Below are positions 5,193 through 25,077 of a stretch of DNA of 40,701 nucleotides, piece by piece; position 1 is the first letter of the stretch, and every line of letters begins with the position of its first letter. The notes under the pieces are model-generated. The model saw only the letters and a program-made list of their open reading frames with translations. It did not search any database and was not told the origin of the DNA. The DNA lies in the NCBI GenBank assembly GCA_036562685.1, contig DATCJR010000181.1, positions 1 through 40,701 on the forward strand, written 5' to 3'. Origin of the DNA: Clostridia bacterium (GTDB taxonomy: Bacteria; Bacillota; Clostridia; Christensenellales; DUVY01). The position numbers were made by a program, and so were the translations under genes.

Positions 5193-5249
5193 CAAATAAA
5201 TAATTTTTAAAAGATAATTAATTTATTGATATATTGGAGAAAAATTATT

Positions 5250-6992
5250 ATGGAATTAGAGATTTTAAGACACAGTGCATCACATTTGCTGGCGCATGCT
5301 ATTAAGCGTTTGTATCCCGATACTTTGTTTGCTATCGGCCCTACAACTAAGACAGGCTTTTATTATGATTTCGAATTTTCCACGCCCATAACAATGGCGG
5401 ATTTTGATAAGATAGAACAAGAAATGACTAAAATCGCTAAGGAAAATCTTAAGATTGAGAGATTTGAATTGCCGCGTGATGAGGCAATTAAACTTATGCA
5501 AGAACAAAATCAGCCTTACAAAGTTGAACTTATCAATGATTTGCCTGAAGGTGAAGTTATAAGTTTTTATCGTCAAGGCGATTTCGTTGACCTTTGCCGC
5601 GGTCCTCATGTCAATTACACTTCTAAAATCAAGCATTTCAAACTTTTGTCTTTGACCGGCGCTTATTGGCGCGGCAGCGAAAAGAACAAAATGCTTACCC
5701 GTATTTACGGTACAGCTTTTGCTACTCGTGAAGAATTGGATGCATATATCAACGCTTTGGAAGAAGCAAAAAAGCGCGACCATAACAAGCTGGGCAGAGA
5801 GCTTGGAATATTTATGACTGAAGAAAATATAGGTCAAGGTTTGCCTTTGTTTATGCCTAAAGGCGCTAAGATAATGCAAAAACTTATGAGATGGGTAGAA
5901 GACGAAGAAGAACGCAGAGGCTATGTCTTGACTCGTACGCCTTATATGGCAAAAAGCAATCTATATAAGATAAGCGGACACTGGGATCATTATCTAGATG
6001 GAATGTTTGTCTTAGGGGAAGAAGATGTGGATGATGGTCTAAAGGCGCTTCGTCCTATGACCTGTCCTTTCCAATATATGATTTATAAAAACGGCGTAAA
6101 AAGCTATAGAGATTTGCCTATTCGCTATGCCGAAACATCTACTTTGTTTAGAAACGAAAACAGCGGCGAAATGCATGGCTTGATAAGAGTTCGTCAGTTT
6201 ACCTTAAGCGATGGTCATATTATTTGCAGACCAGACCAGATAAAAGACGAATTTAAAAATGCATTAGAATTATCTTATTATTTGCTTGATACTTTGGGCT
6301 TAAGAGAAGATATAACCTTCAGATTCTCTAAATGGGATCCCAATAATAAAGAAAAATATATTGATGATCCTGAAAGATGGGAAGAAACACAAAATCTTAT
6401 GAAAGAGATTTTGGACGGACTCAATATAGATTATGTTGAAGGCATAGGAGAAGCAGCTTTCTATGGTCCTAAGCTTGATTTCCAGATCAAGAATGTTTAC
6501 GGAAAAGAAGATACTTTGATCACTATCCAGATTGACTTTGCCCTTGCAGAAAGATTTGGAATGGAATACACTGATGCTGACGGAACCAAAAAGCATCCAT
6601 ATATATTACACAGAAGTTCAATAGGCTGCTATGAAAGAACGCTTGCTTTATTGATTGAAAAATATGCAGGTGCTTTCCCGACCTGGCTTGCGCCTGTTCA
6701 AGTTGTGGTTATGTCTTTGACTGACCGTACAATACCCGAAGTTCAACAGGTTGCAGACGAGTTGACCAAAGCAGGCATATCTGTTCAAAAAGATATCAGA
6801 GCAGAAAAGATCGGCTACAAGATAAGAGAAGCGCAAGTTAATAAAGTTCCGTATATGCTGATTATCGGCGATAAGGATAAAGAAGCCGGTGTTGTAAGCG
6901 TAAGAAGCAGAAAAGACGGCGATATAGGACAATTTAAGTTAGAAGACTTTATCAAGAAGATTAGAGAAGAAATAGACACTAAGAGCAGATAA
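5250..6992 (+). CDS. thrS: Threonyl-tRNA synthetase without TGS domain
   Basis: 580 residues from the ATG at 5250, with TTGGAGA about 9 bases upstream. The ATT at 5226 is in frame but has no binding site. The enzyme charges tRNA-Thr. The editing domain is first: H8xxxH12 in HSASHLLAH and C116 in DLCRGPH, the residues that hydrolyse Ser-tRNA-Thr. The class II core follows, with zinc ligands Cys272 (MTCPF), His323 (SDGHI) and His454 (LHRSS). The anticodon-binding domain begins near TWLAPVQVVV. Typical bacterial ThrRS is ~640 residues because of an N-terminal TGS domain of ~60 residues, which is absent here. The 125 bases upstream hold the ytxC terminator and a strong promoter, so no TGS segment was overlooked. 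All catalytic and editing residues are intact. Confidence 0.97.
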   Translation: MELEILRHSASHLLAHAIKRLYPDTLFAIGPTTKTGFYYDFEFSTPITMADFDKIEQEMTKIAKENLKIERFELPRDEAIKLMQEQNQPYKVELINDLPEGEVISFYRQGDFVDLCRGPHVNYTSKIKHFKLLSLTGAYWRGSEKNKMLTRIYGTAFATREELDAYINALEEAKKRDHNKLGRELGIFMTEENIGQGLPLFMPKGAKIMQKLMRWVEDEEERRGYVLTRTPYMAKSNLYKISGHWDHYLDGMFVLGEEDVDDGLKALRPMTCPFQYMIYKNGVKSYRDLPIRYAETSTLFRNENSGEMHGLIRVRQFTLSDGHIICRPDQIKDEFKNALELSYYLLDTLGLREDITFRFSKWDPNNKEKYIDDPERWEETQNLMKEILDGLNIDYVEGIGEAAFYGPKLDFQIKNVYGKEDTLITIQIDFALAERFGMEYTDADGTKKHPYILHRSSIGCYERTLALLIEKYAGAFPTWLAPVQVVVMSLTDRTIPEVQQVADELTKAGISVQKDIRAEKIGYKIREAQVNKVPYMLIIGDKDKEAGVVSVRSRKDGDIGQFKLEDFIKKIREEIDTKSR

Positions 6993-7005
6993 AATATTAG
7001 ATATT

Positions 7006-7039
7006 AAAAAAACGGCATTGTTTTAAATGCCGTTTTTTT
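7006..7039 (+). terminator. Terminator of thrS
   Basis: AACGGCATT pairs with AATGCCGTT, flanked by an A run and a seven-T tail, 13 bases after the thrS stop. Confidence 0.88.
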
Positions 7040-7075
7040 ATATTCAAAATTTAAATTATCTTAATTAATTTATAT

Positions 7076-7110
7076 AAAAAAAGGGCTGTTTTAAAAACAG
7101 CCCTTTTTTT
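7076..7110 (-). terminator. Symmetric terminator, serves the reverse-strand micro-gene
   Basis: AAGGGCTGTTTT and AAAACAGCCCTT form a long perfect stem with A and T tracts on both sides, so it can stop transcription on either strand. It lies 31 bases beyond the stop of the reverse-strand micro-gene and backs up the thrS terminator on the other strand. Confidence 0.82.
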
Positions 7111-7140
7111 GGTTTTAAAATATTACGGAAATAACTTATG

Positions 7141-7215
7141 TTATTTCTTTACGGGTTTAGCAGGTTTTTCGGGCTTAGAAGGAGCTGAAGTCGGCTTCTT
7201 TGTTGTGTCTGCCAT
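7141..7215 (-). CDS. Lys/Pro-rich 24-residue micro-protein
   Basis: The reverse strand from the ATG at 7215 to the TAA at 7141 encodes 24 residues: MADTTKKPTSAPSKP followed by EKPAKPVKK. Seven residues are Lys and five are Pro, with no aromatic residue, Cys or membrane segment, so the peptide is basic and almost surely disordered. The case for a real gene is the signals. AAGGAGG lies 9 bases before the ATG. TTGACT, 16 bp, TATAAT lies 38-65 bases before the ATG. A perfect hairpin terminator lies 31 bases after the stop. It resembles the Lys/Pro/Ala-rich tails of nucleic-acid-binding proteins, but that is a composition match only. I do not recognise a named family. It is transcribed away from infC. 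Confidence 0.68.
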   Translation of the reverse strand: MADTTKKPTSAPSKPEKPAKPVKK

Positions 7216-7252
7216 AATTTACTTACCTCCTTGATTTTTTAAAATCGACTTC

Positions 7253-7280
7253 ATTATACTACTTGCAATATCAAAGTCAA
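7253..7280 (-). promoter_or_regulatory. Promoter of the Lys/Pro micro-gene
   Basis: Read on the reverse strand: TTGACT (7280-7275), a 16-bp spacer, and a perfect TATAAT (7258-7253). The expected start of transcription is near 7246, giving a leader of ~30 bases that carries the AAGGAGG site. Confidence 0.75.
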
Positions 7281-7562: not shown

Positions 7563-7578
7563 TTTTTGGAGGTCGGTT

Positions 7579-8094
7579 ATTTTTAAGGATTTAGAAATCA
7601 ATGAAAGGATTCGTGACCGCGAGGTAAGGGTTATTGATGAGAATGGCACCCAGCTAGGCATTATGTCAGCATATGAGGCCAATAGAATAGCGGATGAAAA
7701 GAATCTTGATTTGGTTAAGATTTCGCCCACTGCCAATCCACCTGTTTGTAAGATAATGGATTACGGCAAGTACAGATTTGACGCGACAAAAAGAGAAAAA
7801 GACGCGCGCAAAAATCAAAAAGTAAGTGATTTGAAAGAGATTTGGCTGTCAATGACAATTGACAAGCATGACTTAGAGACCAAGGCGAAACAAGCTAGTA
7901 AGTTTATAGCCGGCGGCGACAAAGTCAAGGTATCCATCAAAATGAGAGGACGCCAGCAAGCATATTCTGATCTTGGTATGGAGGTTATGCAAAAGTTCTT
8001 TGAACTTTTGAAAGACGTTGCAGTTCAAGAAAAGAATGCATATAAAGAGGGCAAAAGTATAATAATGGTACTCTCACCCATGAAAGCAAAGTAA
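7579..8094 (+). CDS. infC: Translation initiation factor IF-3, AUU start
   Basis: 171 residues if it starts at the ATT at 7579. IF-3 binds the 30S subunit, keeps 50S off and checks the start codon. The ATT is 6 bases after GGAGG (7568-7572), and the reading from it ([20 protein letters not shown]) is the standard IF-3 N-terminus. No ATG, GTG or TTG lies in frame near that site. The first in-frame ATG (7663) would delete conserved residues and has no binding site. The N-domain contains [20 protein letters not shown] and [15 protein letters not shown]; the C-domain begins near [17 protein letters not shown]. An AUU start is a known infC trait: IF-3 itself discriminates against AUU, so the protein limits its own synthesis, a control that adds to L20 attenuation. 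It leads the infC-rpmI-rplT operon. Confidence 0.95.
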
Positions 8095-23472: not shown

Positions 23473-23646
23473 ATGAAGCATATAAAAGTTATTGCAGCCA
23501 ACACAATTGACAGAAGTAAGGGAACTGGTTGCGGAGAATGCCAGGCAAGCTGCCAGTCCGCATGCAAAACAAGCTGCACAGTAGCTAACCAAAACTGCGA
23601 AAAGAAAATAGTACGTAATCCCGTTATCAAAGTTTGCTTAGAATAA
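23473..23646 (+). CDS. scfA: SCIFF ranthipeptide precursor with C-terminal extension
   Basis: 57 residues; AGGAGG lies 6 bases before the ATG. SCIFF means six cysteines in forty-five residues, a ribosomally made peptide whose maturase adds thioether links. The leader is MKHIKVIAANTIDRSKG. The core has Cys20, 23, 27, 31, 35 and 42, the family spacing C-x2-C-x3-C-x3-C-x3-C-x6-C, in GCGECQASCQSACKTSCTV and NQNCEK. In a studied SCIFF peptide (CteA) the link joins a Cys to a Thr five residues later; Cys31 and Thr36 match that pair by eye. Known members usually stop right after the last Cys at about residue 46. This one adds KIVRNPVIKVCLE and a seventh Cys (55). The maturase is 75 bases downstream. 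The biological role of SCIFF peptides is not settled. Confidence 0.93.
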   Translation: MKHIKVIAANTIDRSKGTGCGECQASCQSACKTSCTVANQNCEKKIVRNPVIKVCLE

Positions 23647-23678
23647 AATTTTTTATAAAGGTTGTAAAAAAAATTAGC

Positions 23679-23712
23679 TATGCAGTAATGTTTAAGTTAC
23701 TGCATATTTTTT
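23679..23712 (+). terminator. Terminator between SCIFF gene and maturase gene
   Basis: TATGCAGTAA and TTACTGCATA form a perfect 10-bp stem with an 8-base loop, followed by six T. It ends 10 bases before the maturase ATG. Partial read-through would give much precursor and little enzyme. Confidence 0.85.
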
Positions 23713-23721
23713 GTAATTGAC

Positions 23722-25077
23722 ATGGTACATAGTTTTAAAGTTTTAGACGATTATTTTTTGTTAGATAGTGAAAGCGGAAGTGTTTTTCATATTGATCGTG
23801 CTGCACATGAAGCTGTTCAGATAATGACAGGCAATGCGCCTTCTAAAAAAGAAATTTCTGACGACATAAAAGAAGCGATTAATGAGCTTGAGAGTTTGAA
23901 AGATCAAGGCGTGCTTTTTTGTCAACCGCCCGAACCCGAGGAGGTAAAGTACAACGGGGATATTAAGTCGATGTGCCTTAATATAAGCCACCGCTGCAAC
24001 CTTAAGTGCAAATACTGCTTTGCAAAAGAGGGTACTTACGGCGGACAAGCTGCGGATATGAGCTTGGAAATAGCAAAAAAGGCTATTGACTTTTTGATAA
24101 TGCACAGCGGTAAAAGGCACTTCTTGGAAATTGACTTTTTTGGCGGCGAACCAATTCTTAATTTTGATGTTGTAAAATCTGCGGTTGAATACGCCAAAGT
24201 TCAAGCGCCCAAGTTCAATAAAACATTCCGTTTTACCATTACCACTAACGGCGTTATTTTTAATGAAGACCAGATAGATTTTATTAATCAAAATATGTCC
24301 AATGTTGTCATCAGCATAGACGGCAGACCAGAGGTTCATAACAACGCGCGTCCTTTTGCAGGCGGACAAGAGAGCTATGACAAGGTTCTGAAGTTTGCCA
24401 AAAATTTTAGAAGTATAAGAGGCAGCAAGGATTATTATATAAGAGGTACATATACGGCTCAAAACCTGGATTTTGCAAATGATGTTCTTTGGATAAATGA
24501 TCAGGGCTTTGACCAGATTTCAATCGAGCCTGTTGTTTTGCCTTATGAACATGTAATGGCAATTAAGCAAGAACATATTCAAAAAATAAAAGACGAATAT
24601 GAGCGTTTGGCAAAAGAATATCTAGAACGCAGAAAGACCGAAAAATGGTTTAATTTCTTCCATTTCATGATTAATTTTGAAGGCGGACCTTGCGAGAAAA
24701 AGAGAGTAAGCGCATGCAGCGCAGGCAACGAATATGTCGCAATAGCGCCCGATGGATTGATATATCCTTGTCATCAATTTGTAGGCAATCATGATTTTGT
24801 TTTGGGCGACCTAAAAAATTGGAATAAGGATTCAAAATTACCGCTTAACGAAGAGATAAGAAATAAATTTCAAAACTGCAATATCCACACTAAACCTAAG
24901 TGTAAGAACTGTTTTGCAAAATACTATTGTTCGGGCGGATGTGCTGCCAATAACTATAATCTCAATAATGACATTAATGATCCGGTTGATGTTATGTGTG
25001 AAGTTATCAGAAAGCGTACTGAATGTGCTATCGCTGTTAACATATTGGAGAATTATTCTAAACAATCGGTTGACTAA
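23722..25077 (+). CDS. scfB: SCIFF maturase, radical SAM thioether-forming enzyme
   Basis: 451 residues. The enzyme uses S-adenosylmethionine and iron-sulfur clusters to make thioether bonds from SCIFF cysteines to nearby residues. Residues ~1-80 form a PqqD-like leader-binding domain. The radical SAM motif is Cys92-x3-Cys96-x2-Cys99 in HRCNLKCKYCFAKEG, followed by DFFGGEPILNF. The C-terminal SPASM domain supplies auxiliary cluster ligands: Cys324, Cys332, Cys350 and the later set in KPKCKNCFAKYYCSGGCA and VMCEV. No purine-rich ribosome binding site lies before the ATG (preceded by TGTAATTGAC), and a terminator stands just upstream, so expression is probably low. The neighbouring SCIFF gene fixes the assignment. 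Confidence 0.95.
   Translation: MVHSFKVLDDYFLLDSESGSVFHIDRAAHEAVQIMTGNAPSKKEISDDIKEAINELESLKDQGVLFCQPPEPEEVKYNGDIKSMCLNISHRCNLKCKYCFAKEGTYGGQAADMSLEIAKKAIDFLIMHSGKRHFLEIDFFGGEPILNFDVVKSAVEYAKVQAPKFNKTFRFTITTNGVIFNEDQIDFINQNMSNVVISIDGRPEVHNNARPFAGGQESYDKVLKFAKNFRSIRGSKDYYIRGTYTAQNLDFANDVLWINDQGFDQISIEPVVLPYEHVMAIKQEHIQKIKDEYERLAKEYLERRKTEKWFNFFHFMINFEGGPCEKKRVSACSAGNEYVAIAPDGLIYPCHQFVGNHDFVLGDLKNWNKDSKLPLNEEIRNKFQNCNIHTKPKCKNCFAKYYCSGGCAANNYNLNNDINDPVDVMCEVIRKRTECAIAVNILENYSKQSVD

Follow-up and report, generated by a model that had tools for sequence, protein, structure and literature searches.

Lys/Pro/Ala-rich tails of the histone H1-like type are known from several bacterial proteins. In AlgP and PhaF, these tails are highly repetitive, comprise 100 or more residues and are attached to a folded domain. 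Further histone H1-like Lys/Pro/Ala tails are found in HupB. Peptides with KPAA repeats of the kind present in the AlgP tail were shown to bind DNA in vitro (PMC9239181). Among small proteins at large, the GMSC catalogue of the global microbiome counts 96.7 million families with at least three members, 52.6 million of them genus-specific (PMC11364881).

Here, we analysed a 40,701-nt stretch of a Clostridia genome (contig DATCJR010000181.1), called the window below. It holds a 24-codon gene which, like the genus-specific GMSC families (PMC11364881), is short, genus-restricted and without functional annotation. Compared with those families, this gene is backed by a complete promoter-SD-terminator unit and by an ortholog at the same locus. 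We regard it as very probably a real, genus-restricted small-protein gene. Its features are listed in Table 1.

Table 1 Features of the peptide gene and of the convergent neighbour, in window coordinates.
Feature	Position	Strand	Remarks
Sigma-70-type promoter TTGACT-16-TATAAT	7253..7280	-	11/12 consensus bases
-35 box TTGACT	7280-7275	-	read directly; followed by the 16-nt spacer
-10 box TATAAT	7258-7253	-	read directly
Small hairpin GATTTT-AA-AAAATC	7233..7246	-	predicted transcript 5' end, +1 near 7246
Shine-Dalgarno AAGGAGG	7226..7232	-	read directly
24-codon gene, product MADTTKKPTSAPSKPEKPAKPVKK	7141..7215	-	ATG 7215, TAA 7143-7141; net charge +5
Hairpin GAAATAAC-ATAA-GTTATTTC	7128..7147	-	takes in the stop codon
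Intrinsic terminator AAAAAAAGGGCTGTTTTTAAAACAGCCCTTTTTTT	7076..7110	-	hairpin + T-run
thrS	5226-6992	+	convergent with the peptide gene

The elements named in the first-pass annotation (promoter, AAGGAGG, the frame 7215-7141 and a strong terminator) were all correct in kind and position, read on the minus strand. The encoded peptide contains seven Lys, five Pro, three Ala, one Asp and one Glu, with three threonine codons, no cysteine and no hydrophobic stretch. Its terminator folds with -19.6 kcal/mol (z -5.6). Since a U-run and an A-run make the hairpin symmetric, and thus palindromic for the plus strand too, it could also serve that strand. As promoter, SD and terminator are all strong, the unit is predicted to yield a short mRNA (~170 nt) that is well expressed. 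The region between thrS and the peptide gene (7000-7110) carries two tandem terminator-like hairpins with T-runs (near 7012-7040 and at 7076-7110), both nearly palindromic, so that they could act on both strands.

How often such a unit arises by chance was estimated by scanning the 40.7-kb window, and dinucleotide shuffles of it, for a promoter, a GGAGG, an ATG frame of 10-60 aa and a terminator. Two units were observed, against 0.02 per shuffled window, a figure that is indicative, as the thresholds were chosen after the unit had been seen. None of the shuffled units had a promoter of at least 11/12. The second unit in the window was SCIFF (PF13165, E = 2.7e-20; 23473-23646, plus strand), a known small protein that served as an unplanned positive control. 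Both genes have their own promoter, SD, short frame and terminator. However, SCIFF is Cys-rich and the substrate of an adjacent radical-SAM/SPASM enzyme, whereas the present peptide has neither cysteine nor an adjoining maturase. The SCIFF gene (57 aa) and the radical SAM/SPASM protein following it, its expected maturase, occupy 23473-25077 on the plus strand. The composition of the peptide was likewise rare: at least seven Lys and five Pro, a criterion set post hoc, were reached by 0 of 200,000 random frames with the base composition of the window.

The genus was represented by this genome (G000) and two others, G001 and G002. An ortholog, MADVKKPAEKPAQAPSKPAKPVKK, was found in G002 (C50, 1360-1286, minus strand), flanked by thrS and infC genes with amino-acid identities of 90% and 81%, respectively. 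G002 is estimated to be 89% complete and 6% contaminated; its contig can be assigned to the organism because it carries orthologous thrS and infC. Promoter, SD, ATG, reading frame, stop and terminator are all kept. The two promoters share 25 of 30 aligned bases, including the unchanged spacer word ATTGCAAG, and the extended promoter pattern (up to two mismatches) occurred at the peptide locus and nowhere else in either genome. The shared word ATTGCAAG is a possible regulator site; a search of the three genomes of the genus for a regulon sharing the TTGCAAG spacer gave no second site. In G002 the SD is GGGAGG, at about the same spacing as AAGGAGG here, and the terminator (GGGGCTGTTA...TAACAGCCCC followed by a T-run) folds with -19.0 kcal/mol (z below -5). 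In G002, thrS and the peptide gene are separated by an inserted frame of 72 codons (L025:991-1209, plus strand), which has hydrophobic segments and no Pfam match.

The two peptides are ~70% identical. Both have 24 residues, K7, P5, D1 and E1 at a net charge of +5; the N-terminal halves differ, alanine numbers three and five, and the G002 peptide contains no threonine. It had been proposed that related genomes should keep the frame if this was a complete micro-protein gene, and that promoter and terminator kept without the frame would favour a small RNA. In G002 promoter, SD, frame and terminator are kept together, the frame is intact, and its substitutions and indels fit a coding sequence, in support of the gene.

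Genes neighbouring the locus have a dS of 1.18-1.23 between the two genomes, and unconstrained DNA is therefore expected to be near-scrambled. Drift simulations with 0.45-0.6 substitutions per site preserved the frame in 0.07-1.2% of cases, and a frame both intact and Lys/Pro-rich in at most 0.005%. Conservation of the frame thus exceeds the neutral expectation, in a comparison of two sequences. The MAFFT alignment contains two apparent 9-nt indels of opposite sign within the frame, and many indels in the flanks are of lengths not divisible by three. From codon 14 onward, the nucleotide-guided codon alignment has three synonymous and no non-synonymous changes. The NG86 dN/dS was ~0.21 with this alignment vs 0.09 with a protein-guided one in which dS was saturated, values that depend on the alignment and come from few sites at a dS near saturation. 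Changes at third codon positions (7/14) were not significantly enriched (p = 0.12-0.15). The intergenic DNA on the infC side is also fairly similar between the genomes (70% of aligned bases); some of the conservation may therefore reflect regulatory sequence. Taken together, the two sequences point to selection on the peptide in which composition would matter more than exact sequence; the case for the unit is strong, that for the protein moderate.

Beyond these two genomes, the gene was not detected. The third genome of the genus (G001, 93% complete), in which thrS and infC lie apart, lacks the peptide, so the gene is dispensable. No convincing homolog was found in other genera of the family, nor with a profile of both peptides, run first on 297 and later on 396 genomes of the order, and on 391 genomes of the class. 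Further profile matches that were read out were rejected, as they had no ATG with SD or lay within longer or unrelated frames. Searches for the peptide in phages, viral contigs, PDB, NCBIfam and Pfam returned nothing, the same genome holds no paralog, and the literature search did not find a described Lys/Pro-rich clostridial micro-protein. The gene is a new, well-supported case of a genus-specific small protein, the commonest kind in microbiome catalogues.

The neighbours were identified as a YtxC-family gene, thrS, infC, rplT, an rRNA methylase-like gene and a YebC-family gene. As originally described, the peptide gene sits beside thrS and points away from infC, which is on the plus strand, i.e. 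the two are divergent. However, the hinted link to translation is unsupported. The order thrS-infC is ancestral and widespread in Clostridia: it occurred in 17 of 80 other thrS loci, most often with the genes about 300 nt apart, and neither the 17 gaps nor any of the 80 thrS loci held such a peptide frame. Since the peptide, unlike this gene pair, is not ancestral, the location is no argument for a translation role. The peptide gene thus sits within an old gene pair, yet is young itself or too fast-evolving to trace. Upstream of infC-rpmI-rplT lies a match to the ribosomal protein L20 leader (RF00558; 7446-7565, plus strand; E = 2.4e-9; 51.9 bits, below the gathering score of 58.7). The infC frame (7579-8094, plus strand) continues without a stop 5' of its first ATG (7663), as far as an ATT codon at 7579 that follows a GGAGG (7568-7572). 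An AUU start, typical of infC, is likely there; ORF calling based on ATG drops 28 codons. The infC genes of G002 and G001 have the same arrangement upstream of the first ATG.

Several other readings of the locus were considered. The least plausible, a chance near zero in our judgement, is a leader peptide or attenuator, e.g. one sensing threonine for thrS. Its appeal lies in the position beside thrS, the three threonine codons, a terminator after the frame and, in Rfam, a weak hit of Thr_leader on the terminator part (30.7 bits vs a cut-off of 55). It was rejected on orientation and on the threonine-free ortholog: thrS is convergent and the minus strand has no gene downstream of the peptide unit. 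A chance frame or decaying remnant in intergenic DNA would fit the narrow distribution, the 24 codons and the missing family match. However, architecture and frame are kept in a second species at a dS near 1.2, and the unit is rarely expected in shuffled sequence, which makes this highly improbable. Lysine/proline-rich peptides can be antimicrobial, and a small, cationic, proline-rich product might be secreted as an antimicrobial or signal. We consider this very unlikely, as the sequence allows no hydrophobic segment or signal peptide and is not amphipathic, and no exporter, protease or immunity gene was found among the adjoining genes identified by family.

A small regulatory or dual-function RNA, in which the RNA acts and the frame is secondary or aids RNA stability, is the rival to which we give most weight, though we still think it improbable. 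The short autonomous transcript with its strong terminator would suit it. Over its full length, the transcript has a more stable fold than shuffled sequences (z -5.1 here, -2.8 in G002), in part owing to the terminator. The stop-codon hairpin recurs in both species (-6.6 kcal/mol, z -5.9 here; -7.4 kcal/mol, z -1.1 and differently extended in G002). A hairpin at the predicted 5' end also recurs (GATTT-N5-AAATC in G002, as far from the -10 as here); it is weak in this genome (-1.4 kcal/mol), its pairs do not vary between the species, and it may act as a 5' stabiliser. Against a regulatory RNA stand the near-perfect SD at good spacing, and a frame that retained its length, charge and Lys/Pro content although the DNA itself diverged, 9-nt indels included. 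The codon-position bias is suggestive and non-significant, so some selection may act at the RNA level. Moreover, no Rfam family reached its gathering score in the unit, and the sub-threshold matches were mostly to the terminator hairpin.

Very probably, then, the locus is a real gene, monocistronic and constitutive-looking, that encodes a 24-residue peptide and occurs in part of one clostridial genus. The gene would be expressed as a short mRNA of its own. Given its shortness and its high Lys and Pro content, the product appears unable to form a folded core, and it leaves no room for a membrane segment; it is predicted to be a flexible, extended Lys/Pro/Ala polycation. Such a peptide may bind RNA, ribosomes, DNA or polyphosphate via charge and composition, not via a fixed fold. 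Judged from conserved composition, electrostatic binding of polyanions would be the likeliest action, because Lys/Pro/Ala tails (AlgP, PhaF, histone H1) act in this way and KPAA-repeat peptides bind DNA. As a whole, a real gene for a disordered polycation that binds polyanions is our best explanation, which we hold tentatively, with belief and doubt nearly balanced.

With the AlgP and PhaF tails, the peptide shares a basic, presumably disordered, Lys/Pro/Ala-rich sequence with repeats of the KPA(K) type, and both orthologs have the polycationic composition of the AlgP type. However, those tails are long and attached to a domain, whereas this peptide is free-standing. At 24 residues and without a Pfam or NCBIfam match, it has neither the folded N-terminal domain nor the long KPAA-type tail of AlgP. 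It resembles the H1-like tails in composition and is not a member of those families. More speculatively, and rather unlikely, it could be a minimal, abundant, free-standing polycation, a tail-only peptide of the H1/AlgP kind. Conserved in length, charge and Lys/Pro content and not in sequence, it would serve this genus by coating or condensing RNA, ribosomes, DNA or polyphosphate.

Genes this tiny are normally overlooked, and lineage-specific small genes are common. The present case demonstrates that architecture and a single ortholog can suffice to support the reality of a 24-codon gene that matches no family. It also offers a new testable candidate for the class of disordered basic small proteins. 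Should the peptide prove abundant and bind RNA or ribosomes, few free-standing polycation proteins of bacteria would be smaller.
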